Source: a virus
Length of the DNA stretch: 23,500 nucleotides
Strand: one strand, 5' to 3'
Virus record (IMG/VR): IMGVR_UViG_3300037635_004849
Location: 1-23,500 of that record
Part shown: one piece after another, positions 2,082-19,078 of the stretch
Position numbering within the stretch: the stretch's first letter is position 1
Layout of the letters: each line of letters starts with the position of its first letter
The notes under the pieces: generated by a model
What the model saw: the letters and a program-made list of their open reading frames with translations, nothing else
What the model was told of the DNA's origin: nothing
Databases searched by the model: none
Program-made: the position numbers and the translations under genes

Positions 2082-3159
2082 TTACTTTGATTTCGTTATT
2101 ATCGTTCTGTATGTTTTCTAATTTGTATTCTGCTGCTAGTATTGATTGTGTTATTTGTTGTATCATGTCTGCTGTTACTGGATATGCGCTATCATCATTG
2201 TAACAAGGTTCTCCAATGTAAGTAAATGATCTAAGCTCTTCTACGTCTTCGAAAATGCCTCGTACAAATAATGTAGGTAACACATAGTCATCTCCTAAAT
2301 GAGGATTTGTTGCAGGTACATTTAATGTGTATATTCTACCGTTTTGGTAAAAATACTTTGGAGCATCTGCATTAAATTTAGTAAAGTAAGAGTATTCGTA
2401 TGCACCAGGTGTAATTGGTATAAGAGGAACTTTAGTTCTACTTAATACACTATCTAGATCTATATCTTCTTTTGTAATAGTGTATACAATTGAAGAAGTT
2501 CCATATCTGTTATTACCGTTAGAATCTAAATCATCTGTTGGTAAATTAAGAGTTACTTTATCTCCAACTTTATATCCTGTTCCACCTTGTGTAATAGTAA
2601 GACCGGTTAGTGTTGCGTTTGTTATTGGAGTACCTGCATTAACTATTGATGTTAAAGAAAACACAGCTCCCTCTCCGCTCTCACTTGTAGTAGTTATATT
2701 ATTAAGAGTTATAGTATCACCAGCACTCAATCCGTCTATTTGTGTATCAGAGAAAGATCCTTGCCATGTACCATAAGTAGTTGCTATTTGTTCTGTAACA
2801 GCAACAACTTGTCTTAATTCAAGCTTGCCTGTATAAACAGTTTTAAAATAAGCTACCTCAAAAAAAGGTACACCTCTTTTTAACCTTACAGGTTTAGGAA
2901 GTATAGAGTTTGATTTGTGTAAAGGTTGATTGTTAACAGCTGCAGAAAACTCAATTGTCTCTGCTATGTTTACTATAGAAATTGGTGCTTCTAAAGTTTG
3001 AATAAACTGGTCAGGTAAATACGTGTTACGCTCTTGATCTCTACGAATTAATAAAGATCTATAATACTTAATCTGAAATTTAAGTCGCTCTATATATGCT
3101 GCATTTGTAGCTCTGCCCGATGCATCGGCTATATTATATGCAATTTCATTAAGAGTCAT
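2074..3159 (-). CDS. Putative neck/ring structural protein with a beta-rich insertion
   Basis: A 361-residue protein with three visible parts. Residues 1-125 hold an N-terminal helical region (MTLNEIAYNIADASGR, then IERLKFQIKYYRSLLIRRDQER) and a beta region. Residues 128-230 are a Gly/Thr/Ser-rich segment with SGEGAVFSLT and GGTGYKVGDKVTLNLP. Residues 230-361 return to a compact fold with TPGAYEYSYFTKF, LFVRGIFEDVEELR, CYNDDSAYPVTADMIQQI and a C-terminal helix. The outer parts resemble ring/neck proteins of Bacteroidetes podoviruses (a 'G-I-F-E-D...Y-P-x-x-x-D-M-I-x-x-I' ending). The middle looks like an inserted beta domain of the 'G-G-T-G-Y-x-V-G-D' type seen in other marine phage structural proteins. 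No enzyme motif is seen. Assignment as a neck protein is inference from pattern and neighbours. Confidence 0.55.
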   Translation of the reverse strand: MTLNEIAYNIADASGRATNAAYIERLKFQIKYYRSLLIRRDQERNTYLPDQFIQTLEAPISIVNIAETIEFSAAVNNQPLHKSNSILPKPVRLKRGVPFFEVAYFKTVYTGKLELRQVVAVTEQIATTYGTWQGSFSDTQIDGLSAGDTITLNNITTTSESGEGAVFSLTSIVNAGTPITNATLTGLTITQGGTGYKVGDKVTLNLPTDDLDSNGNNRYGTSSIVYTITKEDIDLDSVLSRTKVPLIPITPGAYEYSYFTKFNADAPKYFYQNGRIYTLNVPATNPHLGDDYVLPTLFVRGIFEDVEELRSFTYIGEPCYNDDSAYPVTADMIQQITQSILAAEYKLENIQNDNNEIKVNE

Positions 3160-3172
3160 AACGCGTTATTGT

Positions 3173-3661
3173 TTAAATTACCATATACCTTGTTTTTTTA
3201 TTTTTGTCTTTATAAGCTTTTAAACATCTGTTTCTGTTACTGTCTTCAGATACATATGATACATGTACCCAATCTGGATTATTCTCATCACCAAACTCCC
3301 AGATTAATTGATCAAAATCTAAGTTGTCTTTTATGAATTGATACATTTCAGCATTTGTTTTGTGCCCATGTGTATCATCTATATCCATAGCCCTACCCTC
3401 GCAGTGCTGTGATGTTTGACGTTTCTTTCCGTCGATTATTTTACTTGCTCCACCGATTGCTTCGTTTAATTCGTCGCAACGATAAAATGAATTTATTCTT
3501 ATAGGACCTCCCACATACTTGCGCAGAGGTTCAAAGATTTGTTCTGCTAACACTTCCATATTAGTTCTATGGTAGTCGCCAGGTGAATTATCAATACCTA
3601 ATCTCGTAGCTGTAGAACTTCTTATCCCCTCTTTGTATGTTATGTGATCAGAAATTTTCAT
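3173..3661 (-). CDS. Zinc D-Ala-D-Ala-type peptidase (M15 family), probable endolysin
   Basis: A 162-residue protein of the length usual for single-domain M15 peptidases. Visible motifs in order are INSFYRCDELNEAIGG (56-71, the conserved substrate-groove segment with Arg61), SQHCEGRAMDID (84-95, giving zinc ligands His86 and Asp93), and DWVHVS (130-135, giving catalytic or ligand Asp130 and third zinc ligand His133). This is the arrangement of the Peptidase_M15_3-like group, which cuts peptide cross-links in peptidoglycan. No signal peptide or membrane segment is present, so release at lysis would need a holin, which is not in the window. Because it lies among structural genes it could instead be a virion-associated lysin that helps DNA entry. 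The next gene upstream ends six bases before it starts. Enzyme class is firm; role as endolysin versus virion lysin is open. Confidence 0.85.
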   Translation of the reverse strand: MKISDHITYKEGIRSSTATRLGIDNSPGDYHRTNMEVLAEQIFEPLRKYVGGPIRINSFYRCDELNEAIGGASKIIDGKKRQTSQHCEGRAMDIDDTHGHKTNAEMYQFIKDNLDFDQLIWEFGDENNPDWVHVSYVSEDSNRNRCLKAYKDKNKKTRYMVI

Positions 3662-3667
3662 AAGCTA

Positions 3668-3970
3668 TTACTTGCTTTGAATCTCTCCAGTATTTTTATC
3701 AATACTAACGTCTCCGTATTTTTCTTTTAATTCGCTTACAAGTTTGTTTCTTTCATCTATAATAGATTGAAATCTGTCTTTTAAAGCTTGCTCGTTTTTT
3801 TCTACGTTTAACTTTACTAACTGTAAGTCACCTAATTGATAAGTAACATCTTGGATTTGTCTTTCTGCATCTTGGATACCTTGTAACTCTTCCTGTGTAA
3901 CTTTGTTTACTTCTTCAGTAGCTGGTACATCTTGTACTAGTTCTACTTCCTTTGCTGGTTTCTTAGCCAT
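3668..3970 (-). CDS. Small coiled-coil phage protein of unknown function
   Basis: A 100-residue acidic/basic helical protein. Residues 24-85 show heptad-like spacing of hydrophobics (Val, Leu, Ile) among Glu, Gln, Lys and Arg, predicting a long coiled coil. It ends with YGDVSIDKNTGEI, a short 'K-Y-G-x-x-x-I-x-x-x-T-G-E-I' tail that I recall from other small phage coiled-coil proteins. There are no Cys residues, membrane segments or catalytic motifs. The ATG at 3970 is preceded by an A/T-only leader with no Shine-Dalgarno sequence. A 67-base gap separates it from the vWA gene upstream, and the M15 peptidase follows after six bases. Possible roles are a scaffold, chaperone or lysis-associated protein; none can be chosen from the sequence. 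Confidence 0.6.
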   Translation of the reverse strand: MAKKPAKEVELVQDVPATEEVNKVTQEELQGIQDAERQIQDVTYQLGDLQLVKLNVEKNEQALKDRFQSIIDERNKLVSELKEKYGDVSIDKNTGEIQSK

Positions 3971-4037
3971 GATTTGAAATTAAATTTTGTTATTAATACA
4001 AAAATGCGAAAAAAATCGTTACTAACCAAAGTTTCTT

Positions 4038-6020
4038 TTAATAATCAGCACTAATTGTAACAGTGCTTCCCTCTGCCCAAGCTAGAGCACTTGCCTTTCT
4101 CCAACCGTTAGATCCTGATGTAGACCAACTAGAAGAACCTCCTAAATTTTGTAATCCTATGTACATACTACTAAAAGTTTTTCTAGTACCACTAAAATAT
4201 ATGTATATATAATCAGTACCAGAAGGATTATCTTGAAAATAAACCGCAGACAAAGTACTTCCGTTAAAAGAGATGTTACTTATAGATCCCATACTAAAAG
4301 GAAACTGTGATGACCATCCATATGCAGTAGTAGTATAATAAGTAGCAGCTCCTATACTTAAAGAGGCAGTAAAATCAAACGAAGAACCAACAGTAAAAGT
4401 TTTTATATTACTACTATAAACAATACCTCCATTATTTTTTCTTTCAAACCATCCTCTTAATTTATACGTATTTCCAGAAAGTAAATAAACTGAACTTTCA
4501 TTAATTGTTTGAGTTTTAGTTCCAGGATAAGCACCACCACTGTAAACAGTTAATTGATTTCCTGTAGCGCCAGATACAACTCCATTAGTGTAAGCTACTA
4601 CGGGCGTTGCAGAAAAACCAGCATTACAATAGGTCCAACCCATACTATCAACTCCTGCATTATTTACAATTGCTTTAGAATAAATATTTGTTCCACCAGT
4701 AGCTGTTACAGATGTACCGTTAGTTGCTAAATTAATAGGACTTGTGCTGTAAACAAACCCTCTACTTGTTATTGTAGTACTACTTGCAACATTTGCATTA
4801 GCTGTAAATTTACTCGCATTAACAGATTCTAATGCACCATACGAAGTTCCTGTAGCATTTGTTGCCCAAGGTTTCCAGTAATTAGTTAAATTACTATTAA
4901 CATCTGCTACAACAAAACTTGCATCAAATCGTGTATCTGACACTGAGCTTGCATTAACAGTTCCTGTCGGTGCTGAATCTATAAAAGTACTTGGAAGACT
5001 AACAGCAGTAAAAGTAGCAAACCCGGTTGATATGTCATCGCATATGTCTTCAATAAAATCTACAATATCAGTTGGATCTCCAGCAAAATTAGTCAACCCA
5101 CCAGTGTTATTTGCATAACCATTATATACATCATATCTAGTAGTTGTACCGTCACTAGAATCTGTATCAGAAAAAGTACCTAAAACAGATATAGTCGTTA
5201 CATTAGCAACTGCTTGATTAGATAACGTACCCATTTTAGCTAGTTCTTCTGCACCATTAAACTGATCATCTCCATCACCATCAGGGGAATTATCTGTAAT
5301 TAATATTATCATTCTAGTTACACCAGTTCTAAAACTTCCTGCAAGATTATGATTTAATACCCTATCAATCGCAGTATCGTTTGGTTCTGGTCCACTGGCT
5401 CCTGAACCTATAAGCATACTTGTTGCGGAATTAGTAGTCCCATCTAAGTAACCTATTTTTGTATCAAAATCACTTTTATTAGTAGAGGCAAAAGGAACTA
5501 CAGCAGATAACCACACTTCTCCTGAGTTGTATTTATTAGCAGAAGGTAAGTTAGAAACAGTAGTGTTATTACCGGTCCAATACGAAGGTGTTCCATTATC
5601 TTCACCCCCCGTTTGATCAATTAAAACAGCAGCTAATCTATAATCTCCTCCAGATTCAGTAACAACTTTAGATGATATAGCTTCTACGTTTTCTTTTAAA
5701 AGGGTCATGTCATCACCCATACTTCCAGTATAGTCTAACAAAAAAACAACGTCCATAGCTTTATTACAAGGTATTGCTACAAAATCGTGATCATAAGCAT
5801 AAAACTCACCCATACTAAAAGCTGCTGTATTATCAGGATGGTTTGGACTTTGTGTATTAGTAGCATCATAATCTTCTCCATTACCATATTGATCACCCCC
5901 CTGTGTAATGTCTCTTAGACTGTATGGTCCAGATCCATTATCACCGTCATTGTAATCGTTGCTAAGTTTTTCATTAGCTATAGAAAATAAACTTAAACTT
6001 CCACTTCCAGGCACTGCCAT
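4038..6020 (-). CDS. Tail/fibre-associated protein with von Willebrand factor A domain
   Basis: A 660-residue protein with a mosaic build. Residues 1-80 form an N-terminal module ending in AAFSMGEFYAYDHDF, a 'S-M-x-E-F-Y-x-Y-D-H' signature I recall from marine phage fibre proteins, probably the virion attachment part. Residues 88-330 are a vWA domain: strand MDVVFLLDYTGSMGDD supplies the metal-ion adhesion site (Asp96, Thr98, Ser100), with Thr216 and Asp243 (LITDN) as likely further ligands. Residues 340-545 are Thr/Ser/Asn-rich and contain fibronectin-III-like pieces (RGFVYSTS at about 420; YKLRGWFERK at about 519). Residues 545-660 form a C-terminal beta module ending GSTVTISADY. The vWA fold normally binds protein or sugar ligands through Mg2+, so this is a candidate adhesin on the virion. 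It starts one base after the stop of the preceding gene. Domain call is strong; function is inferred. Confidence 0.8.
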   Translation of the reverse strand: MAVPGSGSLSLFSIANEKLSNDYNDGDNGSGPYSLRDITQGGDQYGNGEDYDATNTQSPNHPDNTAAFSMGEFYAYDHDFVAIPCNKAMDVVFLLDYTGSMGDDMTLLKENVEAISSKVVTESGGDYRLAAVLIDQTGGEDNGTPSYWTGNNTTVSNLPSANKYNSGEVWLSAVVPFASTNKSDFDTKIGYLDGTTNSATSMLIGSGASGPEPNDTAIDRVLNHNLAGSFRTGVTRMIILITDNSPDGDGDDQFNGAEELAKMGTLSNQAVANVTTISVLGTFSDTDSSDGTTTRYDVYNGYANNTGGLTNFAGDPTDIVDFIEDICDDISTGFATFTAVSLPSTFIDSAPTGTVNASSVSDTRFDASFVVADVNSNLTNYWKPWATNATGTSYGALESVNASKFTANANVASSTTITSRGFVYSTSPINLATNGTSVTATGGTNIYSKAIVNNAGVDSMGWTYCNAGFSATPVVAYTNGVVSGATGNQLTVYSGGAYPGTKTQTINESSVYLLSGNTYKLRGWFERKNNGGIVYSSNIKTFTVGSSFDFTASLSIGAATYYTTTAYGWSSQFPFSMGSISNISFNGSTLSAVYFQDNPSGTDYIYIYFSGTRKTFSSMYIGLQNLGGSSSWSTSGSNGWRKASALAWAEGSTVTISADY

Positions 6021-6021
6021 A

Positions 6022-6333
6022 TTACCAAGGTTTTTCTAGTCCATAATCCATAGGAACTTTCATGTTAGCAATCATTTCATCTACATACGTTTTAGTAAAC
6101 TCGTATACAGGATGATTTTCTATCCAGTCTATTACATTTTGCTCTGTTAAATTAGCAAACTCTATAAAAGATTCTGAGTCGTAATTTACATCTAAATGCG
6201 AATTAGCTTTATGAGAGTATTCTCCGTCAACGCATTCTATTGTAAACTCAACTTTAGTTATTACGTTTTCTTTACCGTCGTAATTAGGAGCACCTTGTAG
6301 ATGCGTTATTGTTGTTGTGTATGTTTTAGCCAT
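6022..6333 (-). CDS. Small hypothetical protein between fibre genes
   Basis: A 103-residue acidic protein. The first half is beta-rich (AKTYTTTITHLQGAP, then VITKVEFTIECVDGEY). The second half is helical, with LTEQNVIDWIENHPVYEFTK (about 62-81). The pattern 'L-T-E-x-x-V-x-x-W-I' is one I recall from short uncharacterised proteins encoded beside tail-fibre genes in marine phages. It has one Cys, no signal peptide and no membrane segment. It lies directly between the S74 fibre (four-base gap) and the vWA protein (one-base gap), so it is probably translated with them. A fibre-assembly accessory or a small structural subunit are both possible. I do not recognise a named family with confidence. 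Confidence 0.6.
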   Translation of the reverse strand: MAKTYTTTITHLQGAPNYDGKENVITKVEFTIECVDGEYSHKANSHLDVNYDSESFIEFANLTEQNVIDWIENHPVYEFTKTYVDEMIANMKVPMDYGLEKPW

Positions 6334-6337
6334 GATT

Positions 6338-7684
6338 TTAATTTTTACAGTTACAGTTACAAGCTGTTTTATTACAAGCAGCCATTTGTGATTTAAGTTC
6401 GTTTATTTGTTTTTGTTGTTCTTTTATTGCTTCTATCAAGTATCCAGTTAAGTTACCATATGCAACTCCTAATGTACCATCGTCATCGCTAACAAGTTCA
6501 GGAGCTACCTTTTGCATCTCTTGTGCTATTACACCAGAGCTTGATATACCAGTGTCTTTTCTATCAAAACTAACACCTCTCATTTGCAGTACTTTACTAC
6601 CGTCTAATGTTTTAACATTTTCTTTTAACCTAGCATCTGAATAAGCTATAACATCTGCACTAGCTGTTACTGATCCTTCAAAGTTTCCTGGTCCAGCATA
6701 AACATTTTGCCATCTGTAAGAACCTGTACCTAGTCTAGTGTTTGTACTTGTTGTGGTTCCTTCAGGAATAAGAGCAGTAGGACAATTAATGTGAATATGA
6801 TTACTATCTCCACTTTTACCAATAGTACAGTTACCTAATTGAATATAACCACTTCCCTGCACAGTAAAAGAACCACTACTACCAGCGGTAATCTTACCAG
6901 GAAAAGTCCAGGAACCATTCTTATCATAAGTCGTTGTATTGAAATTACCACTATTACTTTGTCTGGTATATAACTTCATTTGCCCTCCTCTACTATCAGC
7001 ACCTCCACCTTCTGTTTCACCTCTTATTATAACTGCTCTATCATCAGTGCCATTAGTATGGGTAGTTTGCCATTTTATATCTCCTAGTATTTGAGCATCA
7101 CCATTTGTATTTCTTCTAAAGTCTAAATTTGCAGGAACGCTATCAGTTTGATATAAATTCAAAGTTCCCTTTATAGTAGCTAAAGTATTTTGTAATTGTA
7201 AAATGAGATTACCACCTACGTAATGTTGCATAACATCGGCAGAACTTTCTGTTATGTATGTATTACTTTGACCATCTAGATAAAACTTTCTAGCAGCTGC
7301 AATAGCAAAATCAGTACCACTAAAAGATGCGACATCACTACCTATTTTAAATCTAGTTGCTCCGTTCGCAATAAACCTTAATTCACCTGTGCCATTGTCA
7401 CTTATGTAACTATGCGTACCATCATGATATAGTTCTAAGTCTTGAGAATCACCTAGTTGTATTTTATCATTATCGGCTAATTGAATATTACCATCAATAG
7501 TTACTGTACCATCTGAGTTTACATTAAATATTGGAATACCAGAAATATCTGAAACAGAGAATATATCTCCTGTTAGACTATCTGTTACAGAGAATACTTG
7601 TCCAACGCTTCCTTGAACGTCTAAGAGTGTACCTCCTGACCCACTTACTATGAGTCCCTTTTTTATTTTAAATTCATTTGCCAT
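6338..7684 (-). CDS. Tail fibre protein with C-terminal peptidase S74 autoprocessing chaperone
   Basis: A 448-residue fibre. Residues 21-105 form an N-terminal repeat module (LDVQGSVGQVFSVTDSLTGD ... IQLGDSQDLELYHDG) shared with the giant fibre. The middle is beta-strand and Gly rich (105-320), with TRLGTGSYRWQNVYAG just before the chaperone. Residues 345-430 are the intramolecular chaperone of endosialidase (peptidase S74): YSDARLKENV holds the Ser349-Lys354 dyad with the expected five-residue spacing, so self-cleavage is predicted just before Ser349. It continues with SGVIAQEMQKVAPELV, VAYGNLTGYLIEAIKEQQ and a short coiled coil. Such domains fold the trimeric fibre and are then released. 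The extreme C-terminus is Cys-rich (Cys437, 442, 444, 446), which is unusual for the family as I know it. The mature receptor-binding part would be residues 1-348. Confidence 0.9.
   Translation of the reverse strand: MANEFKIKKGLIVSGSGGTLLDVQGSVGQVFSVTDSLTGDIFSVSDISGIPIFNVNSDGTVTIDGNIQLADNDKIQLGDSQDLELYHDGTHSYISDNGTGELRFIANGATRFKIGSDVASFSGTDFAIAAARKFYLDGQSNTYITESSADVMQHYVGGNLILQLQNTLATIKGTLNLYQTDSVPANLDFRRNTNGDAQILGDIKWQTTHTNGTDDRAVIIRGETEGGGADSRGGQMKLYTRQSNSGNFNTTTYDKNGSWTFPGKITAGSSGSFTVQGSGYIQLGNCTIGKSGDSNHIHINCPTALIPEGTTTSTNTRLGTGSYRWQNVYAGPGNFEGSVTASADVIAYSDARLKENVKTLDGSKVLQMRGVSFDRKDTGISSSGVIAQEMQKVAPELVSDDDGTLGVAYGNLTGYLIEAIKEQQKQINELKSQMAACNKTACNCNCKN
7379..7624 (-). repeat. Shared fibre N-terminal module, copy in S74 fibre
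   Basis: Residues 21-102 of the S74 fibre, paralogous to 18752-18997. Probably the virion-proximal or trimerisation part of both fibres, and a possible recombination site. Confidence 0.85.
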
Positions 7685-7705
7685 AATTGCCTTTCATTTT
7701 CCAGG

Positions 7706-9028
7706 TTATATATTAAATCTATTTTTATATGCGTTGAAGTTTTGTTTTACTTCTTCTGCAGAGAGTGCTTTGTTATATATTTTTGCTACTGGAACATTCC
7801 CTTCAAGAAAGTAATTTGAATACAAAGTACTTGATGCTCCTACTAACAGGTTATAATTATTGTCTACATTCATTAAGCTTCCTCCACTGGTAATAGCTTC
7901 TTGCACTCCGTTTATATAAAAATGCCCATTGTTTGTTACGCTACTGTCTCTAATCATCACAACATGAATGTAAGTTCCTAATAGATTACCAAATGTATTA
8001 GTTGTAAACCTTTCAACACTACTTGACCCATTAGCTGTAGACCATAAAAATTTCTGGTGTCCTGTATTATAGTATATGCCCATACCCGCGTTTGCGGAAC
8101 TTGCTCCTTTTTTTACCACAACTCCTTTATAGTGACCTGTACTTGTTGTAATGTCTGAAGGAATGTAAAGTACAGCTTCTATTGTAAAATTATTTGTACC
8201 AAAATCAGTAAAACTAGTATCGCCTATGCTAATACGGTCATCTGTTCCATCAAAAGTAGGTTGACCCGTAGAATCAAATGACACGTTAGACACGTTTATT
8301 TCTGCTGTGTTTTTTAAATCTATTATACTTTGCGTACTTGATCTAGTTCCTGATGTATAATTTACAGGACCTGTTGGTACTGTCGCATGCTCTGTAATCA
8401 TGAAGTTTGTAAATATACCTTCACCTGTAATAGTTCTGTCATTGTATATATACATAGAGCTTATAGAAGATGGTGTTTTACTACTATTAACCTGTACATA
8501 TAATGCTATTTTTCTCCATTGCCCTATATAATCACTGTTATTATTCCAATCATCTCCAGCATTTGGTGTGTTTAGCGACGTGTTCCAACCTATGCCAGAG
8601 GTTGTACCATCAGTATACTGTATTCCCATATAGCCATTTAAACCCGTGGATGAGCTTGAGTGCCTAACATACGGTGTTATCATGTAGAAATCAAAACTAA
8701 CTAGCACATACTCTGTATTAGAGCTAAGAGCGGCTGTAGTAAAGTTTTTATATAGACCAGCGTTGTTGTTATAAGTATTAGAGTTAGATAAAGCAGGATT
8801 ACTTACAAAGTTTCTTTGAAAAACTCCAGAGTCAGAGTTTAATCCGTAATAATTACTTCTATATAAAGTCTCACCACCAGAGCCAAAATACCCAGGTAAA
8901 CCAGCTGTTATTAAGTTAGTAGCAGGTTCTCCTTTATAATGTCTAGTACTTGAATGTTGGTCTAAGCCGTATCCAGTGTCGTATCCAAACACTAACTGGT
9001 CGTTATGTAATTTAGGTCCTGTATACAT
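7706..9028 (-). CDS. LamG-like lectin-fold tail protein, paralogue 1
   Basis: A 440-residue protein, first of three paralogues. It has an N-terminal module with GPKLHNDQLVFGYDTGYGL and GEPATNL (1-39), a variable jelly-roll-like region (about 40-222) ending FMITEHATVPTGPVNYTSGT, a conserved linker IDLKNTAEINVSNVSFDSTG and FDGTDDRI (236-266), a concanavalin A/LamG-like domain (about 265-430) with HVVMIR, FYINGV and LLVGASS, and the shared C-terminal tail AEEVKQNFNAYKNRFNI. LamG-like folds bind carbohydrates, so a receptor-binding or capsule-binding role on the virion is likely. The ATG overlaps the preceding gene's stop (TAATG). A 21-base gap follows before the S74 fibre. The fold is supported by pattern only; the ligand is unknown. 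Confidence 0.8.
   Translation of the reverse strand: MYTGPKLHNDQLVFGYDTGYGLDQHSSTRHYKGEPATNLITAGLPGYFGSGGETLYRSNYYGLNSDSGVFQRNFVSNPALSNSNTYNNNAGLYKNFTTAALSSNTEYVLVSFDFYMITPYVRHSSSSTGLNGYMGIQYTDGTTSGIGWNTSLNTPNAGDDWNNNSDYIGQWRKIALYVQVNSSKTPSSISSMYIYNDRTITGEGIFTNFMITEHATVPTGPVNYTSGTRSSTQSIIDLKNTAEINVSNVSFDSTGQPTFDGTDDRISIGDTSFTDFGTNNFTIEAVLYIPSDITTSTGHYKGVVVKKGASSANAGMGIYYNTGHQKFLWSTANGSSSVERFTTNTFGNLLGTYIHVVMIRDSSVTNNGHFYINGVQEAITSGGSLMNVDNNYNLLVGASSTLYSNYFLEGNVPVAKIYNKALSAEEVKQNFNAYKNRFNI
8234..8350 (-). repeat. LamG-family interdomain linker, paralogue 1
   Basis: Encodes the conserved linker (INVSNVSFDSTGQPTFDGTD) that joins the variable first domain to the LamG domain. It matches 9508-9621 and 11076-11192 in protein and closely in DNA. 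Confidence 0.8.
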
Positions 9029-10236
9029 TATATATCAAATCTATTTTTATATGCGTTAAAATTCTGTTTTACTTCTTCTACAGTTAGCGACTTGCTAAAT
9101 ATCTTAAAAACTGGGAGTTCTCCTTTAAAGTATCTGCTATCTCCATTAGATCGAGAACCTATACGAGGACCACTTGGATTAGGAGCTAAGTTACCAGAAC
9201 TTGTTATAGTTCCTTTCAGTATTCCGTTAGCATAAATTTCCATAGTCCCATTTGATAACTGCTGCAATACAAAATGTACATACTCGTTGTCGTAATTTCC
9301 TGCAGATATTACATGCTCTGTTCCGTCATAAAAGTCAAATGCCCATTGACTAGATGTATATAAATTGTAATTCAGGTTCCACCTAGTGATATCTACATCA
9401 AAAACTACCATAGCAGCTTGATCGGCAGAAGATTTTTTTAATACTAATTCTACAGCCACTGGTGCGCTTGTAAAGTAGCTTCTAAAAGATGAAGGAATAT
9501 TTATGTAGTCGTTAGTTCCATCAAACGCAGGCTGCCCTGTTGAATCAAAACTAACATTTGATACATCTATATTTGTGGTTTTTTTTAAATCTATAAGAGA
9601 TTCTGTAGATGAACGAGTTCCTAATACATATGGAGTTACATGAGTATTAATTTCTAGTTTTGCTCCACCAATAGCCCAAAAACCAGTATGACTACCATCT
9701 GTTACACCGCTTCTACTTGGGTAGGCTATTATAGCGTTACCACTTACAGCAGAAGACGAATTACATGTAATTGATAATTGTTGCCAGGTTCCTTTGTTAT
9801 TAAGATCATACCATCTATTTGTAGTATTTGTTAACGTAGTTCCTTCCATACTTTGATGCATAGCAGTAATATTACAATCACTACTTACGTATACCCAGCA
9901 ACTCAAAGTGTAAGATGTATTAGCTAAAAAACTATAACCTATTAAAGTATAACCATAAGAATTACCACTCCAAGTTGAACTTAAAGACCCTGACGTATGG
10001 CTATATACTCTACCAACGTCTTCGGGTGGTTTTTGAAAACTAGCCGTCCAAGTAGATGTGTTGTATTCTGTTCGGTTAGGTCTTGCATTAGCATTGCTTA
10101 TGTCTCCAAATAAATTAACAGCAGGCTCTCCTGGGTACAATCTAGTAGTAGTGCTATTATCAGCCACGCCAAAATAAGTGTCGTATCCAAATACTACACC
10201 ATCTTCAATTAAATTTGCGCCTACTTTTGTTGCCAT
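9028..10236 (-). CDS. LamG-like lectin-fold tail protein, paralogue 2
   Basis: A 402-residue paralogue. The N-terminal module (GANLIEDGVVFGYDTYFGV, then RLYPGEPAVNL; 6-42) matches its two relatives. The variable region (about 45-205) reads like a CBM4/9-type carbohydrate-binding jelly roll: TSYTLSCWVYVSSD, GTWQQLSITCNSSS, then GFWAIGGAKLEINTHVTPYV, a typical ending for that fold. The shared linker SLIDLKKT, IDVSNVSFDSTGQPAFDGTN lies at 213-242, and a LamG-like domain (245-385) has YVHFVLQQL, MEIYANG and PRIGSRS. The C-terminal tail is VEEVKQNFNAYKNRFDI. It starts one base after the stop of the small 10238-10567 gene and shares TAATG with paralogue 1. Role as a sugar-binding virion protein is inferred from the folds. 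Confidence 0.8.
   Translation of the reverse strand: MATKVGANLIEDGVVFGYDTYFGVADNSTTTRLYPGEPAVNLFGDISNANARPNRTEYNTSTWTASFQKPPEDVGRVYSHTSGSLSSTWSGNSYGYTLIGYSFLANTSYTLSCWVYVSSDCNITAMHQSMEGTTLTNTTNRWYDLNNKGTWQQLSITCNSSSAVSGNAIIAYPSRSGVTDGSHTGFWAIGGAKLEINTHVTPYVLGTRSSTESLIDLKKTTNIDVSNVSFDSTGQPAFDGTNDYINIPSSFRSYFTSAPVAVELVLKKSSADQAAMVVFDVDITRWNLNYNLYTSSQWAFDFYDGTEHVISAGNYDNEYVHFVLQQLSNGTMEIYANGILKGTITSSGNLAPNPSGPRIGSRSNGDSRYFKGELPVFKIFSKSLTVEEVKQNFNAYKNRFDI
9508..9621 (-). repeat. LamG-family interdomain linker, paralogue 2
   Basis: Encodes IDVSNVSFDSTGQPAFDGTN. Second copy of the linker at 8234-8350, in the same place within the gene. Confidence 0.8.
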
Positions 10237-10237
10237 A

Positions 10238-10567
10238 TTATTCTTCTATGTTTTCAGTCCATTCTTCTGTTTCTAACAGTTCTAATATTTCAGAATGATT
10301 GTATTCTGTATAATCATCACTATATATGCTTGGTCTACCGTAAACTCCAGCTTCTATAGTATTAGTCATTTCTTGATTTGTATCAACATCCCAAAAAGTT
10401 TCTGTATAAGTTTCTTCTATTACATTAACTTCATATTTAACAAAAGTCAAAGTCTCATCTACAGACTTTCTTAATGAATCAGCATTTGGTTCAAGAACTT
10501 GATTAAAATCAATGTCGTCTATTACATTTGTTGGTATTACCAACCATCGTCTGTTTTCGAATCTCAT
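10238..10567 (-). CDS. Small acidic hypothetical protein between LamG genes
   Basis: A 109-residue very acidic protein. The N-terminus MRFENRRWLVIPTNVIDDID and a following FNQVLEPNADSLRKSVD segment resemble, from memory, short uncharacterised marine phage proteins of the form 'R-W-L-V-I-P-x-x-x-x-x-x-I-x-F-x-Q-V-L-E'. The middle is beta-rich (LTFVKYEVNVIEETYTETFW), and the C-terminus is a Glu/Asp-rich helix (EILELLETEEWTENIEE). There is no membrane segment, signal peptide or catalytic motif. It sits between LamG paralogues 3 (four-base gap) and 2 (one-base gap), so it is cotranslated with fibre genes. It may be an assembly partner of those lectin-like proteins, but this is only inferred from position. 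Confidence 0.6.
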   Translation of the reverse strand: MRFENRRWLVIPTNVIDDIDFNQVLEPNADSLRKSVDETLTFVKYEVNVIEETYTETFWDVDTNQEMTNTIEAGVYGRPSIYSDDYTEYNHSEILELLETEEWTENIEE

Positions 10568-10571
10568 AATT

Positions 10572-11801
10572 TTATATATTAAATCTATTTTTGTATACGT
10601 TATAATTTTGTTTTATTTCTGTAGCTGTTAGTTCTTTGTCGTAGTATTTAGCTACTGGTATTTCTCCTTCAAACCAACTACCGGTACTACCTCCGAATGC
10701 TCTTTGTCCGCCAATATAAAGATTTGTGCTATCAGGAGCTCCAGTAAAAGTTGTACTATTACTGTTTTTCAATTCACCATTGATATATAAGTTCATCCCC
10801 GAACCTCCTCCAAAGGTTACTATAACATGATGATATACGCCTTTTGCATATCCAGATGATGCAGCATAACCACCTGTGCTAGCATCTCTAATTTGAAATC
10901 CAATAGTATTAGTTCCACCTTTATAAATACCATACTGACCCGAGTAGGATCCTGCTATTGAAAAAATGTTACTATAATAATTGTTAGCCCACGTTCCGCT
11001 TGTTGGAACTTTAAAAACACATTCCATAGAAAATGGTTTAGCGTAATTTGAAACACCTATTCCGGATACGACTATTCGGTCATCAGTACCATCAAATTCA
11101 GGTTGACCTGCTGAGTCAAAAGAAATATTTGATACGTCTATACTATTTGTTTTTGTTAGGTCTATTAAACTAGCTGTACTAGATCTTGTACTGTCTACAA
11201 AAGGAACAGCTACTCCTTCATTAACCATAAAATTATCAAATAAATATTCAAAATCTAATGTATTGTCTGTATTTAAATTTGTTCTATAAAAATTATATCC
11301 AGTATAAGTTGACGTATATGTTCGTGTTAATCTTTTCCACCCGTCTTCTAAATCAACTATAGTATCCGTAACATTACTTGCAGCACTTCCAGAATCAGGT
11401 GTTTTATATCCGTTTTTATAAAAAGCACTAGGACTAAAGGATGAATTAGTTCCTTTTATTTTTTTATAATCAAACGAGTAAGTATATACATTTCCTGATG
11501 TATTTATAATACTACTTTGTTGGTTTACCATATAATATCCTGAAGTATTAGTAGAGTATATTCTAAACACATTTTTTCTATTACCGTAAGAAATTATTTC
11601 AGTTGTTACTGATGCACCGTGACTACCATGCATAGGACTAGTTACAACATTTGCTCTATCTGCTCCTCCATTTATAGAATTAGATATAGGCTTACCCTGA
11701 TAAAATCTTGTAGCGGTAGTATTATCTGCAACCCCGTATCCGGTATCGTAACCAAATACTAAACTTTCATTTATTAAATTAGGTCCTCTGTGTATTCCCA
11801 T
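10572..11801 (-). CDS. LamG-like lectin-fold tail protein, paralogue 3
   Basis: A 409-residue paralogue of the genes at 7706-9028 and 9028-10236. It has the shared N-terminus (GPNLINESLVFGYDTGYGVA, then RFYQGKPISN), a variable beta region (about 45-200) with VYTYSFDYKK, GWKRLTRTYTST and a closing YLFDNFMVNEGVAVPFVDST, the common linker SLIDLTKTNSIDVSNISFDS and EFDGTDDRIVV (211-245), a LamG-like domain (about 245-395) with PFSMECVFKVP, YHHVIVTFGG, MNLYINGELK and NLYIGGQ, and the C-terminal tail TEIKQNYNVYKNRFNI. Ends and linker are conserved while the first domain differs from its relatives. The start codon shares its A with the stop of the giant fibre gene (TAATG). A carbohydrate-binding virion role is likely but not shown. 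Confidence 0.8.
   Translation of the reverse strand: MGIHRGPNLINESLVFGYDTGYGVADNTTATRFYQGKPISNSINGGADRANVVTSPMHGSHGASVTTEIISYGNRKNVFRIYSTNTSGYYMVNQQSSIINTSGNVYTYSFDYKKIKGTNSSFSPSAFYKNGYKTPDSGSAASNVTDTIVDLEDGWKRLTRTYTSTYTGYNFYRTNLNTDNTLDFEYLFDNFMVNEGVAVPFVDSTRSSTASLIDLTKTNSIDVSNISFDSAGQPEFDGTDDRIVVSGIGVSNYAKPFSMECVFKVPTSGTWANNYYSNIFSIAGSYSGQYGIYKGGTNTIGFQIRDASTGGYAASSGYAKGVYHHVIVTFGGGSGMNLYINGELKNSNSTTFTGAPDSTNLYIGGQRAFGGSTGSWFEGEIPVAKYYDKELTATEIKQNYNVYKNRFNI
11076..11192 (-). repeat. LamG-family interdomain linker, paralogue 3
   Basis: Encodes IDVSNISFDSAGQPEFDGTD. Third copy of the linker. With the conserved gene ends it gives each paralogue three blocks of homology around two variable domains. 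Confidence 0.8.
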
Positions 11802-14800
11802 TATATTGCTCTTATTAAAGTTTTAACACTCCAGTTATCTGAAGTTGTTGTTGCTATTAATCTTAAATTAAACCCTGATTTATCTACACTTAAAACTACA
11901 TCTGATGTATCGCCTAAGTCTTGCGTCGATGTTTCTGTAAACTCTACGTCTGTTCCATCGTGACAAGCATATACTGTACCTGATCTTACGTTTGTACCTT
12001 TCTTAACTACAAAGTCAAAGAAAGCCGCTGTATATGTTTGAGTACTTACTTGAGCAACTACTTCCGCTCCTGTATCAATGTCTGTATTATTTTGACTTGA
12101 TATGTTAGCAGTTCCTGTTGTAATATCACTTATTACATTGAGGCTACCTGAGTTGCTAAGAGACATTCTGGTAGAGTATAAACTACCATTATAATTTTTC
12201 CACTCTATTTCATCCCCATTATATAAAACTTGATAATACCTACTTGTACCACCAGAGTCTTGGGATTTCATTCTGTAACCAGCGGGATCTGATAACGTGG
12301 ACGACTCAAGCCCTAACAATACGCCTGTATTCATACCTCCAGCGTCAATGTTTTTTGATAGTGTTAGCCCAAAAGAAGGATTAGTATTATTAATACCAAC
12401 TGCACCAGTACTGAGTATAGTCATTGCCTCTGAGTCATAAGGAACTCTAAAGCCTAACCTACCATTGCTACCTGTTGATCCGTTAGCAAAAATGTCAGCG
12501 TGAAAATTTACAATTGTACCAGCGCCATCATCAGAATAAGATCTAAACCTTATACCTGAGTCACCATTCGCACTTTCATCATTTATTCTAACTTGAGGGA
12601 AATCTGAATCAAGAACATGTAAAGCACATATAGGATCTTCTTCACCTATACCTACATCGCCACCCATAACTAAAAACTTCTCTGTGTCAAACCTGGTTGA
12701 AGCCGTATTTATAATGTATACATCTCCAGTAGCGTAGTTCACGGTAGCTATATTTTGACCATTCCAAGCCCAACCTATGTTATTAGGCGGTACTCCTGTA
12801 TTAAAATACCCTACTAAAGTACAATCTAATCTAACTTGGTAAACGTTATAACCGTTCTGTGTTATCCATAAATAAGAACCATCATAAGTAATAGCCTGAG
12901 CTTCTAAGCCGTTAAGTATATCTGCCGTAGTTTGTACGTGAGTTATTGTTTTACCTTCTAACTTGTATTGAGAAACTTTACCATTTGCAGCAGTATATAA
13001 ATGCCCTTCAGCATACTCTACATCATATGTTGAAGTAGTATCTTGTAATGCTTGGGTAAATACTATAGTAGCAGTACCCGTTCCATTATCTAAATCATAA
13101 GCTACTATTTTAGCTCCAGAGCCTGCATATTGTATAACATACAGATATCTACCATCCCAAGCAGCCCCATGAGGGTGATCAGTATTACCGTCGTTAGGTA
13201 AACTTATACTACTTCCATAAGTGTTGTTTATAGCTTCAAAACTACTGTTATAAAACTTAGCGGTTTGAGCATTATAATCTGTTGCTATATAATGCTTTCC
13301 AGTCCAGACAATTCCTCTTACAGCTGTAGCAAGATTTTTTCCAGTATCATAATACGATATACTGGCGTCCATAGACTTATTACCAAAACCTGTTATCCCT
13401 GATGTTGAGTTATTGTATTGATTTGATTGGTTTAAATAATTAACACCAGTTGCCACAATACCACCATCAACATCTAATTTTTCACTAGGATTATTTGTTC
13501 CAATCCCAACTCTTTGATTTGCTCCATCAAAAGTAACTAAAGGAGTTGAAGTACTAGCGGGGTCTCCTACAGCAATCTGCATTCCTTGATTGATTGGAGA
13601 CATAATAGCATAGTTTTCACCCGAGGCAACTAAAGATATATCTCCTTCAACGTCTAATTTGTAATCAGGAGTATCAGTACCAATTCCAACATTTCCATTG
13701 TGGTCAATTCTAACAGCTTCATCTAATGTTTCATCATTTTGTGTAATAAATAAACCTAAACCAGTACTAGAATCAGAGTCGCTTGAACTTTCTCTAATCG
13801 CAGCTATACTAGCTCCAACAAAACTATTACCTGGTGCTGTGCTATCATTCCCTGCTATTTTAAACTTTATACCTACACCCTCGCCTCCTAATTGATTAAT
13901 CGTATTACTGTCATCTCTTGATGAAATAGTATGTGGATAATCTATAGTAGATTGCGCTGATAATTGTTGACTAACTTCTAGTAAAGATGAAGCAGAGGTT
14001 GTTCCAATACCAACACTAGAAGAATTATCAGTATCAATACTTACACTGTTACTTATTATTTTTTCAGTCCAAGTATCATTGTCTCCAGTAATTGAAGAAA
14101 CAGGTGTTTCACTATACCAAGTCCCTCCAATACCTGAGCCTATCATTGTGTAGATAGGAGTTTGATAATTTCTTATTACTTTGTGCCATATTGTCCAAGA
14201 TCCTGATGCAGCAGATGTTACGGATAAATTAATTTGAAAGTTTTCAGCTAACAAAGCTTCTGAACCATAATTAACTATATTAGCATATATACGATATTGA
14301 CCGTTTTGCATTTTATAGCTAATATGCACATCTGCATTTATATTGTTATTAGCGGTTTCTCCAGCTGCTAAAACTTTTAGTGTAAAAGCAGAAAAAGAAA
14401 ACGTAGACCAATTGTGTGAATATACTTTTTGCCAGTTATTAGTATGCGTATTACTTGTATAAGTACCTGCATGACTAAAAAATGTTTCAGCCTTAATCTT
14501 ACCTTGTACAGTTATATCATCAGAAAAAGTACCACCATTAGTAGCAGATACAAAATCTGTAGGTATTGAAGGTGTCCCAGTAAAATTCGCATAATTTAAA
14601 TAATAAGTCCCTTGTTGTCCATCTAATTTATCGGAGTCTAAACCATTACCTGAACCTTGTTTTGTAATTTGATTAGGATGTATCATTCCTGTACCTTCCG
14701 TTCCCTCCCACTGTGAAGAAGAAAAAGCAATACCAGTAAAATGAAATCTACCTTGTCTATTTTGAAATTTTATTTTTCCAAAACTACTTAAACTTGTACC

Positions 14801-17800
14801 CGCAAAAGTTATGGTAGAGCCATCATGTTGACTCGCTCCTTCGTCACTGTTTTGGACTGTTTGGTGTGTGTTTATTCTTCTTAAGAAAACCTCACCTCCA
14901 TCTGACTGAACACCAAGAACATCAACATAACCACCACTACTCCAAGTAAGATGTGAAATCCAACAAGATTGTGCCCCTGTAGGAACTGTAAATGTTATTG
15001 AACCTGTTCCATCGTTATGAGCATAACCTCCTGAAATATTAGGTTCACCCCATGCTTCACTAGTTCCTGTAGACCAAGTTCCTGATCTAGACTCATAGTC
15101 GTCATTAACATCTAATACAAACTCTCCATTTATTCTTTTTAACAACGTCCCGTGAGTTCCGTCTACTGTATCAGCATCTAAACCAGAACCTGCTCCATCA
15201 TTTGCTGAATTCCATATTTTAGTATTTGACCCTAAATAAGTAGTGTCGTAAGTTTCATTTACGTAGGTTGTTATATTAGTTATAGTTGGAGTTTCATAAA
15301 TTACAGTTATACCTGCACCTGAAGTTGGGTTAGAGTGTATTATTGAGTGACCTAATGCGTCAATTACTACCTTAACAGACTTATAATGAGAAACTTCAAC
15401 ATATATATCTGTGTAGTAAACATTCTGATTAGAGTGATCCCAACCTGCATCTGTATGATCTCCTAATACTATTTTGTATCTCTGTAGATCACCGTTGTTA
15501 CCTCTGTAATCTACAACTCTTAAATTTAAAGTTTGGTCATTAGTTCCGTTGTAGTATCCAAATAAATGATACTTGATATATCCTGAGTTATAAGTCTCTT
15601 CATTTATTGTGAAATAAAGATTCTGCCATGTAGTATCCCAATGTTTTGGACAGTAGTAAACACGTCCAATATGATGTCTTCTAGCCTGTGTCCCACTTGC
15701 TGCTAATCCAGGGAATACGTGTCTATCGGTCACCCCAGTTAAATAAGAAGTTCCTGGATTATTTAAAATCTGTGAATCTCCACTTGTTGAGTTCCAATCA
15801 GCATTAACATTTGCTTCAGCATTTGTGGGAGCAAAAGTTGTAGGAAGTGCCGAAATATCAACTCCATCTACTGTGGCATTTTCCTGCATTATAATATTAC
15901 CTGCAAAAGTTGCGTGTGAATTAGTGTCTAGCGTCAATCCAATTGTCATAGTACCGCCTTCTCCTGTCCACGCGTTCCCGTATCCAAGTTTTAATTCGCC
16001 ATTAACACCTCGTATCATTGCAGGTTTATCTGTTCCTCCTGAATCTTGATTACCTATAAGTATATGTTGTGCAGTTCCTGTTTCTGTAATTTTTATTGCT
16101 CCTCCAAAAGTAGAACCTGTTGGTGTAGAAATAGCACCACTAAAAGTTCCACCATTTGCAGCAGATACAAAGTCTGTAGGTATAGTAGGTTTATTAAGTA
16201 TAAAAGCGTCACTTGTTGTAGTTGTCTCATTCCAATCTGCTTGTACATTTTGTTCTGCGTTATCAGCAACTCCTGTAGCGGTTGAGTAACCAGCGTCTTC
16301 GTGAGAATTATTTGTAAAAGCTGTTAAACCAGTTGGTTCAGTCGCTTGATCTGTTGTCGTGTTTTCATTGTAAGTAGTTACAGTAGCTGGCGCTCCTTCT
16401 GTTATACTTGGAGTTAATCTATATCTAAAAATAGTCCAAGCAACAGTTTTAACCCATAAAGTAACAGTGCTACCGTCAACAATATATTTAATCCAACCTT
16501 CTTGACTCCAGTTTCTAGATGGGTTATGATCGTTGTACCACGCGCCTAATATATCGCAATCGGTATCATTATCAGAGTGAACGTGTATACCAGCTTTTCC
16601 AGTTGCATATCTAGTAGACCAATGAAAGTTAAAGTTGTAATCGGTATAAGTACCTACCGTTATCTCAGCAAGTTTATGGTACCTAACCATACCAGCGTTA
16701 GCATTTGTATTTGGATCTAATCCGTAACCATAGCCAAGTCTTATAAAGTCAGCAGAACCAGCTGTGCCTGCTTTTAAATATGTCGTAGAATCAACAGATC
16801 CATCTGCTTTTAAAAATCCTGTAGAAGCACCACTAGGTACAGCAAAAGAAGCACCAATTACATCCCCTGCAACAGTTAAATCATTAGTTAAATCCCAAGT
16901 ATCATCACCATCATCAAATATTAAACTAGCTTGAGTTATAACATCATCATTAGCGTCTACTCCTCTATAAATAGATATACCAGAGGTTGCTGATGTTGCA
17001 GTATCTGGTGTTCCTTGTGTTGTGTTAAGTTGTAGTATATTATCTTCAACTTCTACAGTTGTAGTATTTAATGTAGTTGTGGTTCCATCTACTGTTAAGT
17101 CACCAGATATTATGGCATTACCAGGAATTGTAACTTGACCATCTTTGTTTATGATTAGTTGACTAGTAGCTCCGTTTTGTATTTTAAAATCACTTGCTCC
17201 TGTTCCTTGAAAATCTCTTCTTAAAATAAATTGATGGTCACTATTACCATCTGAGTCTTGATATGCAAATATTGTATTAACAGTATCATTGACGTGTAGT
17301 TTAATTGATTGATCTGATGTTCTACCAGCTGATAAAGATCCAGTTCCTGCTCCCGTGTGAACACTTAAGTTTCCTCCAAAATTACCACCACTTGCCGCAG
17401 ATACAAAATCAGTTTGATTTACTACTGTGCTAGGTGCAGCATCAGTTATACCGTATCCTGCTAAAGTTGTTGGTGTAGTCTCTATTTCTGCAAATGTAGG
17501 TTTATGACCTTCATGAAATATTTCTCTAGGAGTACTATTGTCTACAACGTAGTTTCCTTCCGCTAATGTTGATGTATCTAATTCAACACCTGTAGTACCT
17601 CCTGAAACTGGAGCAGGCTCTGTTGTAACAGCGTTTGATCCTGCTGACGTATGAAAAACAGTAGCCCCTGATTTAGTTAAGTGGAGTCTTAACATTTGGT
17701 ATCTAGTAGTTTTTACATAGACATCAAAATAATGATAGTACTGACTAGTTGTAATATCAGACTCAATAATTCTAATACCACAGTTGTCAGTTGCTTCAGA

Positions 17801-19078
17801 CCCTGTTGCATTATGCAAAACATCTACTTGTCCAGTTATTTCAATATTATCACTAGATCCTGCTTCTCTACCTACGATACCTAAGTCAACTTTTTGTGAT
17901 GCAAATCCTTCAACGTGGTTAGAAAAAAGACCCCTAATGTGTAAACCACCATTACCTTTATTAACAGTAGCAACTTTATACCACCTGTTTCCAGTAATGG
18001 CTGATTCGTCATCTATTTCAAAAACCCATTCTTTTGCTGAACCGTCTTTTGTTAAAAATTTAGCATTTGATTCAGTTTCTGTATAATACCTACCATCATG
18101 ATTATGAGCACTTGGTGGGAACGTACTAGGCTTATTAAGTATAAAAGAATCACTAGTCGTAGTGGTTTCAGTCCAGTCTGATTGCACGTTTGCCTCAGCA
18201 TCTGTAGGTGCAAAAGAAGTTGGTAAGCCTGATATATCAACACCATCAACTGTAGCGTTCGCCGCCATTACAATATTACCTACAAATCGAGCACTTCCGT
18301 CAGGTTTTAAAGTTAAGTTTAAGTCTTCGTCTGAAGTTCCATTAGCATTAGAAGTATAAAACCTCATTTCTTGATTATAACCACCAGTATTAGCAGTTCT
18401 TATACTACCCAGCCAATCTCCGTCATTAGATGATATACCTCTAAGCAATACAGACTCTGCGTTAGTTGTATTTGTGCCTTGTATATATAAAGCGTCTGTA
18501 AGTTTTTTAGTTGATCCGGCTGAAAGTGGTAAGTAACCTGTTAAGTCTTGGTCCCCAGTGTTTGTTCCTGAAGATGATCCTGAGAAATTTGTAGCAGATA
18601 TATTGCCTGTTATAGTAACACCCGTGTTTGTAGTTTCAAATTTTTTAACACCACCATAGTATAATTCCACACTATTAGCTTCATTCATGTTAGCTAATAA
18701 ATTGCCAACTGAATCTTTGAAAATTATATCATTACCACCGTTAATAATTAAATCTCCTGTGCCTACTTCAGAAATATAACTATTACTTCCGTCATGATAT
18801 ATCTGTAAGTCTTGAGAAGCTCCTAATTGTATTTTATTACTATCCCCTAAGTTAAGAGTACCGTCTATAGTAATTAAACCGCTAGAGTTTACATTTAATA
18901 TAGGTATACCTGATATGTCTGATACTGAGAATAAATCTCCAGTAAGACTATTAGTTACAGAAAATAATTGCCCTTGAGTTCCTTGGACATCTAATACTGT
19001 AGAACTACTAGTAAAATTACTACCATCAATAATAGCCTTACCTAAAACTTCTATATTCGTTAAGAACTTTTGTGCCAT
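11801..19078 (-). CDS. Giant modular tail fibre (2425 residues)
   Basis: The largest gene in the window. Residues 28-110 are the N-terminal module shared with the S74 fibre (LDVQGTQGQLFSVTNSLTGD ... YHDGSNSYIS). After a GYLPLSAGSTKKLTDALYIQ segment (181-200) come repeated linkers: NVQSDWTETTTTSDSFILNK (297-316), a second copy at 944-963, and NADWNSTSGDSQILNNP at about 1092. These alternate with four beta-sandwich-like domains near 352-495, 795-905, 1130-1275 and 1535-1660. 'G-L-D-A-D-T-V-D-G' type motifs occur at 1299 and 1489. Residues 1690-1885 and 2140-2240 carry VGIGTDTPDYKLDV-type trimeric fibre repeats, flanking a propeller-like segment (1912-2128). The end (2330-2425) has GTVYACHDGTDVEFTETSTQ and no S74 chaperone. 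Probably a trimeric receptor-binding fibre. The frame is intact throughout. Start ATG lies 27 bases after the preceding stop. Confidence 0.85.
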   Translation of the reverse strand: MAQKFLTNIEVLGKAIIDGSNFTSSSTVLDVQGTQGQLFSVTNSLTGDLFSVSDISGIPILNVNSSGLITIDGTLNLGDSNKIQLGASQDLQIYHDGSNSYISEVGTGDLIINGGNDIIFKDSVGNLLANMNEANSVELYYGGVKKFETTNTGVTITGNISATNFSGSSSGTNTGDQDLTGYLPLSAGSTKKLTDALYIQGTNTTNAESVLLRGISSNDGDWLGSIRTANTGGYNQEMRFYTSNANGTSDEDLNLTLKPDGSARFVGNIVMAANATVDGVDISGLPTSFAPTDAEANVQSDWTETTTTSDSFILNKPSTFPPSAHNHDGRYYTETESNAKFLTKDGSAKEWVFEIDDESAITGNRWYKVATVNKGNGGLHIRGLFSNHVEGFASQKVDLGIVGREAGSSDNIEITGQVDVLHNATGSEATDNCGIRIIESDITTSQYYHYFDVYVKTTRYQMLRLHLTKSGATVFHTSAGSNAVTTEPAPVSGGTTGVELDTSTLAEGNYVVDNSTPREIFHEGHKPTFAEIETTPTTLAGYGITDAAPSTVVNQTDFVSAASGGNFGGNLSVHTGAGTGSLSAGRTSDQSIKLHVNDTVNTIFAYQDSDGNSDHQFILRRDFQGTGASDFKIQNGATSQLIINKDGQVTIPGNAIISGDLTVDGTTTTLNTTTVEVEDNILQLNTTQGTPDTATSATSGISIYRGVDANDDVITQASLIFDDGDDTWDLTNDLTVAGDVIGASFAVPSGASTGFLKADGSVDSTTYLKAGTAGSADFIRLGYGYGLDPNTNANAGMVRYHKLAEITVGTYTDYNFNFHWSTRYATGKAGIHVHSDNDTDCDILGAWYNDHNPSRNWSQEGWIKYIVDGSTVTLWVKTVAWTIFRYRLTPSITEGAPATVTTYNENTTTDQATEPTGLTAFTNNSHEDAGYSTATGVADNAEQNVQADWNETTTTSDAFILNKPTIPTDFVSAANGGTFSGAISTPTGSTFGGAIKITETGTAQHILIGNQDSGGTDKPAMIRGVNGELKLGYGNAWTGEGGTMTIGLTLDTNSHATFAGNIIMQENATVDGVDISALPTTFAPTNAEANVNADWNSTSGDSQILNNPGTSYLTGVTDRHVFPGLAASGTQARRHHIGRVYYCPKHWDTTWQNLYFTINEETYNSGYIKYHLFGYYNGTNDQTLNLRVVDYRGNNGDLQRYKIVLGDHTDAGWDHSNQNVYYTDIYVEVSHYKSVKVVIDALGHSIIHSNPTSGAGITVIYETPTITNITTYVNETYDTTYLGSNTKIWNSANDGAGSGLDADTVDGTHGTLLKRINGEFVLDVNDDYESRSGTWSTGTSEAWGEPNISGGYAHNDGTGSITFTVPTGAQSCWISHLTWSSGGYVDVLGVQSDGGEVFLRRINTHQTVQNSDEGASQHDGSTITFAGTSLSSFGKIKFQNRQGRFHFTGIAFSSSQWEGTEGTGMIHPNQITKQGSGNGLDSDKLDGQQGTYYLNYANFTGTPSIPTDFVSATNGGTFSDDITVQGKIKAETFFSHAGTYTSNTHTNNWQKVYSHNWSTFSFSAFTLKVLAAGETANNNINADVHISYKMQNGQYRIYANIVNYGSEALLAENFQINLSVTSAASGSWTIWHKVIRNYQTPIYTMIGSGIGGTWYSETPVSSITGDNDTWTEKIISNSVSIDTDNSSSVGIGTTSASSLLEVSQQLSAQSTIDYPHTISSRDDSNTINQLGGEGVGIKFKIAGNDSTAPGNSFVGASIAAIRESSSDSDSSTGLGLFITQNDETLDEAVRIDHNGNVGIGTDTPDYKLDVEGDISLVASGENYAIMSPINQGMQIAVGDPASTSTPLVTFDGANQRVGIGTNNPSEKLDVDGGIVATGVNYLNQSNQYNNSTSGITGFGNKSMDASISYYDTGKNLATAVRGIVWTGKHYIATDYNAQTAKFYNSSFEAINNTYGSSISLPNDGNTDHPHGAAWDGRYLYVIQYAGSGAKIVAYDLDNGTGTATIVFTQALQDTTSTYDVEYAEGHLYTAANGKVSQYKLEGKTITHVQTTADILNGLEAQAITYDGSYLWITQNGYNVYQVRLDCTLVGYFNTGVPPNNIGWAWNGQNIATVNYATGDVYIINTASTRFDTEKFLVMGGDVGIGEEDPICALHVLDSDFPQVRINDESANGDSGIRFRSYSDDGAGTIVNFHADIFANGSTGSNGRLGFRVPYDSEAMTILSTGAVGINNTNPSFGLTLSKNIDAGGMNTGVLLGLESSTLSDPAGYRMKSQDSGGTSRYYQVLYNGDEIEWKNYNGSLYSTRMSLSNSGSLNVISDITTGTANISSQNNTDIDTGAEVVAQVSTQTYTAAFFDFVVKKGTNVRSGTVYACHDGTDVEFTETSTQDLGDTSDVVLSVDKSGFNLRLIATTTSDNWSVKTLIRAI
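12695..13345 (-). other. Beta-propeller-like segment inside the giant fibre
   Basis: Residues 1912-2128 of the giant fibre contain five repeated blade-like units. Each has a small-hydrophobic run into an aromatic, then Gly, then a strand: RGIVWTGKHYIAT, HGAAWDGRYLYVI, YDVEYAEGHLYTA, QAITYDGSYLWIT and IGWAWNGQNIATV. The key aromatics fall at about 1925, 1974, 2022, 2065 and 2105, a period of 40 to 49 residues, normal for propeller blades. Each unit is followed by a second strand ending in a Tyr/Phe-bearing turn (VAYDLDNG, VSQYKLEG, VYQVRLD, VYIINTAS). Units are visible by eye; whether the fold closes as a five-bladed propeller is inference. Confidence 0.6.
15755..15898 (-). repeat. Giant-fibre linker repeat, copy 3
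   Basis: Residues 1061-1108 (NIIMQENATVDGVDISALP through NVNADWNSTSGDSQILNNP). Same order as copy 1, with a shortened Thr run, which points to tandem duplication followed by drift. Confidence 0.8.
16187..16261 (-). repeat. Giant-fibre linker repeat, copy 2 (second half only)
   Basis: Residues 940-964 (QNVQADWNETTTTSDAFILN and the following KP). It lacks the ATVDGVDIS part found in copies 1 and 3, and is followed by IPTDFVSAANGGTFSG, itself repeated at about residues 1505-1520. Confidence 0.75.
18128..18277 (-). repeat. Giant-fibre linker repeat, copy 1
   Basis: Residues 268-317, running from NIVMAANATVDGVDISGLP through NVQSDWTETTTTSDSFILNK. The full unit recurs at 15755-15898 and its second half at 16187-16261. 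It separates globular domains of the fibre. Confidence 0.8.
18752..18997 (-). repeat. Shared fibre N-terminal module, copy in giant fibre
   Basis: Residues 28-109 of the giant fibre. The module matches residues 21-102 of the S74 fibre in the same order (LDVQG, FSVT-SLTGD, FSVSDISGIPI-NVNS, IQLG-SQDL, YHDG, YIS), and the DNA is also clearly alike by eye. Confidence 0.85.

Follow-up and report, generated by a model that had tools for sequence, protein, structure and literature searches.

A von Willebrand factor A domain in a predicted exchangeable adhesin encoded in a phage tail-fibre locus

The window, meaning the whole stretch of DNA analysed, comprises 23,500 nt and corresponds to positions 1-23,500 of IMG/VR record IMGVR_UViG_3300037635_004849. 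Viral contigs with homologues were found by scanning viral contigs and are numbered L001-L118. The gene of interest lies at 4038..6020 on the minus strand. It encodes a modular protein of 660 amino acids that bears a von Willebrand factor A (vWA) domain. The open reading frame is intact, and it and its motifs lie where the earlier note had placed them. The relatives were retrieved in close, intermediate and distant tiers. The close homologues are 73% (L001) and 72% (L002-L004) identical. The next tier consists of L007-L013, L053, L057 and L094, and the distant vWA homologues (L100-L118) share approximately 25-37% identity.

The protein contains a 79-residue N-terminal module, the vWA domain and Fn3-like and beta domains, in that order and all on the minus strand. 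The N-terminal module (residues 1-79, MAVPGSG...MGEFYAYDHD; 5784..6020) is presumed to serve virion attachment or assembly. It had no match in the PDB or PHROGs. The vWA domain covers residues 80-336 (5013..5783), with a core at about 88-332, as supported by Pfam, by the structure model with Foldseek and by conservation. Residues 337-660 (4041..5012) contain a fibronectin-III-like (Fn3-like) segment and a C-terminal beta module. The Fn3-like segment shows the pattern VTSRGFVY...YRAYATNSxGTSYG. This pattern makes the earlier fibronectin-III-like label plausible, but Pfam gave no Fn3 match.

The neighboring genes form a tail-fibre locus. A DUF7936 protein is encoded at 6022..6333 on the minus strand (PF25590, E=6e-12), and this gene is adjacent in 25/69 loci with the N-terminal module, including that of the sheath-bearing L004. 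Next to it lies the gene of a tail fibre with a C-terminal S74 intramolecular chaperone (6338..7684, minus strand; PF13884, E=6.5e-11), which matches PHROG tail-fibre families with E values down to 5e-28. The S74 fibre lies within 1.5 kb upstream in 58 of the 69 loci, and most of the other contigs end on that side. Three tandem LamG-type (PF13385) paralogues occupy 7706-11801 of the window (7706-9028, 9028-10236 and 10572-11801). A protein of 109 amino acids interrupts the tandem. Phage immuto has relatives that bear the annotation of structural proteins. The 2425-aa product of 11801-19078 is fibre-like and contains internal repeats; parts of this protein recur in fibre genes on further contigs, for example L004, L016 and L019. 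L004 contains two DUF7936-like genes (2885-3199 and 5266-5613), one on either side of its vWA gene. In L053, a small gene at 7874-8395 directly follows the vWA gene and appears methyltransferase- or spermidine-synthase-like by eye.

The locus occurs in more than one type of phage. The window, L001 and L053 encode a crAss-type tail ring protein. L002-L004 encode a tail sheath that is closest to that of the Flavobacterium myophage immuto (61%). The gene order S74 fibre, DUF7936 and vWA is common to the crAss-like contigs and the sheath-bearing, myoviral L002-L004. In immuto, LamG proteins, the 110-aa protein and a DUF7936-like protein precede the sheath; searches of immuto gave no match to the vWA domain or to the N-terminal module. 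For the terminase of sister contig L022, the nearest relatives are those of a spring podovirus and of Flavobacterium elemo and Cellulophaga phages. Because the terminase and sheath are closest to those of Flavobacterium and Cellulophaga phages, the hosts are probably flavobacteria, which would be marine. The window probably derives from a crAss-like podovirus infecting Flavobacteriia.

The vWA domain is real. The earlier note had placed one at residues 88-330 (5031-5759), and homologue matches, predicted fold and selection all bear this out. PF00092 matched the whole 660-aa protein at E=0.0014 and the domain alone at E=1.1e-4, with 22.9 bits, just below the curated cut-off of 23.8. The match is borderline for the window domain by itself but firm in its relatives. 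The L053 homologue clears the cut-off at 24.4 bits, and PF00092 matches 23/26 aligned homologue domains (best, 1.4e-19). VWA_4 matches 18 of these domains, and Integrin_beta matches 4. PF13519, which the note had also named, gave no match with the window alone. A profile of the 26 sequences retrieved collagen VI, integrin alpha-X and integrin beta-1 from the PDB by sequence only. The single 660-aa protein had no PHROG match and no PDB sequence match.

An AlphaFold model of the vWA domain was built from a 12-sequence alignment. It has a pTM of 0.69 and a moderate pLDDT of 60.6, which is higher in the second half and below 50 in loops around residues 128-212. The model shows the alternating beta-alpha order of a Rossmann-like fold. 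At E<=0.001, Foldseek retrieved 218 PDB structures, of which the listed ones were mostly vWA-type proteins, led by integrins (integrin-beta), PTMP1, LapA and SpaC, so the structure prediction that the note had proposed yields a fold of the vWA type. The full-length model has a pLDDT of 41; it served only for secondary structure and for a fold match, which was consistent. Codon-level omega for the vWA domain is approximately 0.11-0.14. This indicates purifying selection, which argues against a chance resemblance.

The domain carries the conserved residues of a predicted metal site (MIDAS). Its first loop, D96-Y-T98-G-S100-M-G-D-D, lies at 5709..5735 on the minus strand, with DYTGS at 5721-5735. 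The third loop, T242-D243, lies at 5292..5297 on the same strand. D96, T98, S100, T242 and D243 are invariant across the 26 phage homologues, down to approximately 25% identity. The earlier note had described a complete site formed by D-Y-T-G-S, Thr216 and Asp243. The first and last of these hold, but Thr216 (5373..5375, minus strand) is unlikely to be a ligand because it is unconserved and lies within a helix (residues 213-223 of the model). It is Thr in only 7/26 homologues and otherwise Y, I, V, M, L, D or E. We propose Glu212 in its place, on account of its conservation, its helix position and its alignment with integrin. It belongs to P211-E212 (5385..5390, minus strand) and lies just before or at the start of the helix. 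Position 212 is Glu in 22/26 homologues; T-V-G-W-E or T-I-G-W-E occurs in the remaining four. In L009-L013, the Glu is missing and T-V-G-W-E takes its place, so the third ligand appears to vary within the family. In the sequence-only profile match, the phage P-E coincides with that of integrin beta-1. In integrins, the Glu of the P-E motif is a MIDAS ligand. By sequence, the D-x-T-x-S, the Glu or Thr type at the third position and the Asp agree with the MIDAS pattern (DxSxS, Thr/Glu, Asp), and the P-E Glu agrees with the integrin-beta type. The window has an acidic pair (DD) after S100-M101, and in the family D103 and D104 are each acidic in 7/26. An ADMIDAS based on the SMGDD of the window was dropped, since the pair is a family minority, and the protein was not filed as an integrin beta for want of that pair.

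The modules of the protein recombine independently, as the identities of single modules disagree between pairs of contigs. L008 and L012 share 93% identity in the N-terminal module and 54% in the vWA domain. For L008 and the window, the corresponding values are 47% and 82%. L009 and L001 share 56% in the vWA domain and 83% in the C-terminal part, which recombines separately from the vWA domain. The N-terminal module is present on approximately 65 viral contigs, joined to vWA or to very different C-terminal cassettes. In L062, its partner is an S74 chaperone, which PF13884 matched with 21.9 bits (cut-off, 22). Among relatives that share this N-terminal module, most lack the vWA domain and contain other domains in its place. 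Tail-fibre locus and modular exchange are thus both present, as for a receptor-binding protein.

Related vWA domains occur elsewhere in phages. In the distant phages L100-L115, the protein has its vWA domain at the C-terminus. The large-phage proteins of L100-L113 that start with MIPTNSS.TTNGCD end in a vWA domain of the same family, and in L100 an S74 fibre precedes the vWA gene by about 2 kb. Related vWA domains are also fused to other predicted virion proteins in L116 (PHROG 14478) and L118 (PHROG 21108). The L116 protein (3101-7909) has 1602 amino acids and carries the vWA at its C-terminus. By sequence, vWA domains in phage virion proteins therefore appear not to be unique to the window, and the earlier remark that phage tails seldom contain them holds only in part. 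The L116 and L118 proteins belong to virion-structural PHROGs, which supports a virion role. The 660-aa protein itself has no match among named phages or PHROGs, and its virion location is therefore an inference. Named phages also gave no match to a distant vWA relative or to three N-terminal modules. Scans of bacterial genomes found no relatives, and a host origin of the protein could therefore not be traced.

The best reading is that of a tail-fibre adhesin whose receptor-binding cassette is exchangeable and depends on metal (probability about 0.7). The earlier proposal of a metal-dependent virion adhesin is the best-supported reading, apart from its use of Thr216; the switchable binding that it also suggested is speculative. 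The adhesin reading is favored by the vWA fold, the invariant D-x-T-x-S and T-D, the conserved acidic third position, the tail-fibre locus and the N-terminal module in common with the S74-chaperone protein of L062. Residues 1-79 may be a common mounting piece on the tail. In the vWA domain (residues about 88-332), a divalent ion would sit at the tip, coordinated by D96, T98, S100, E212 and D243 in the manner of an integrin-beta MIDAS. Its partner on the host would be an acidic group carried by a surface protein or polysaccharide. Residues 337-660 would supply an Fn3-like spacer together with beta modules, which may contribute to specificity. The vWA domain belongs to a set of several swappable head cassettes traded between phages, including the sheath-bearing myoviral ones. 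Such swapping fits a receptor-binding part under selection.

The main rival gives the vWA domain a structural or assembly role in the tail, in fibre-fibre or fibre-baseplate contacts, and leaves host binding to the C-terminal beta module or the LamG proteins. This is improbable. vWA domains can serve solely in assembly or in protein-protein contacts inside a tail, and this one is strongly conserved. Evolution is fastest in the C-terminal module (50% identity and omega 0.5 against L001), which would suit a receptor-binding tip, and the neighboring LamG proteins are evident sugar binders. However, the domain is absent or replaced wholesale in most relatives with the same N-terminal module and is thus not needed for assembly, and its C-terminal position in the distant phages also speaks against this role. 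A degenerate vWA fold that has lost metal binding and acts as a scaffold is very unlikely. The third position does vary between Glu and Thr types, but D96, T98, S100 and D243 stay invariant in the 26 sequences, which a metal site explains best. The viral vWA proteins described in the literature that we found are CobT or AAA+-partner types (PMC8651126, PMC7911831). That the protein is an intracellular MoxR/CobT-like one working with an AAA+ ATPase, like those of haloviruses and ATV, is highly improbable, since its gene sits in a tail-fibre locus, its N-terminal module and Fn3-like architecture are unlike CobT, and 12 vWA-bearing contigs gave no AAA_3 match and no AAA_5 match above the cut-off for an adjacent MoxR/CobS-type ATPase.

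If the adhesin reading is true, a swappable vWA receptor-binding head would connect divalent cations with the host range of phages. It would also suggest that abundant marine bacteria display a surface ligand, probably an acidic one. To our knowledge, the phage receptors of these bacteria are mostly unknown. More speculatively, flavobacterial phages may use an integrin-beta-like, metal-switched vWA cassette that has spread across unrelated virions, with Glu and Thr site types setting host specificity. Viral vWA proteins are already known by annotation; in the open-access literature, we found no description of vWA as an exchangeable adhesin cassette of a tail-fibre locus.

Integrins, pili and biofilm adhesins are characterized by metal-dependent adhesion through vWA domains. 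The integrin beta I-like domain (PF00362) is among the top Foldseek matches and shares the aligned P-E and a D-x-[ST]-x-S-M loop. Identity is only about 12%, however, and the phage protein comes from a tail locus and has no alpha partner. Most of the phage family lacks the ADMIDAS-like DD seen in the window. Several viral VWFA proteins match the model by Foldseek, those of NIOZ-UU157 (E=8.7e-10) and cr106_1 (6.3e-6) and a PaMx28 virion structural protein (4.9e-4). They are named by domain alone, and the literature on NIOZ-UU157 gives no function. Pilus-tip and surface adhesins (GBS 3tvy, SpaC 6m3y, LapA vWFA 9no5 and Mfa5) also carry a vWA adhesion head on an appendage. The GBS cell wall anchor protein 3tvy matches the phage domain by sequence, and SpaC and LapA match the model by fold. 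Unlike the phage protein, these adhesins are host encoded, are cell-wall bound or secreted and have other N-terminal anchoring. Modular receptor-binding fibres with S74 chaperones likewise have a constant N-terminal module, swapped C-terminal domains and a place in the fibre locus. They differ in the tip, which here is a vWA domain predicted to be metal dependent.
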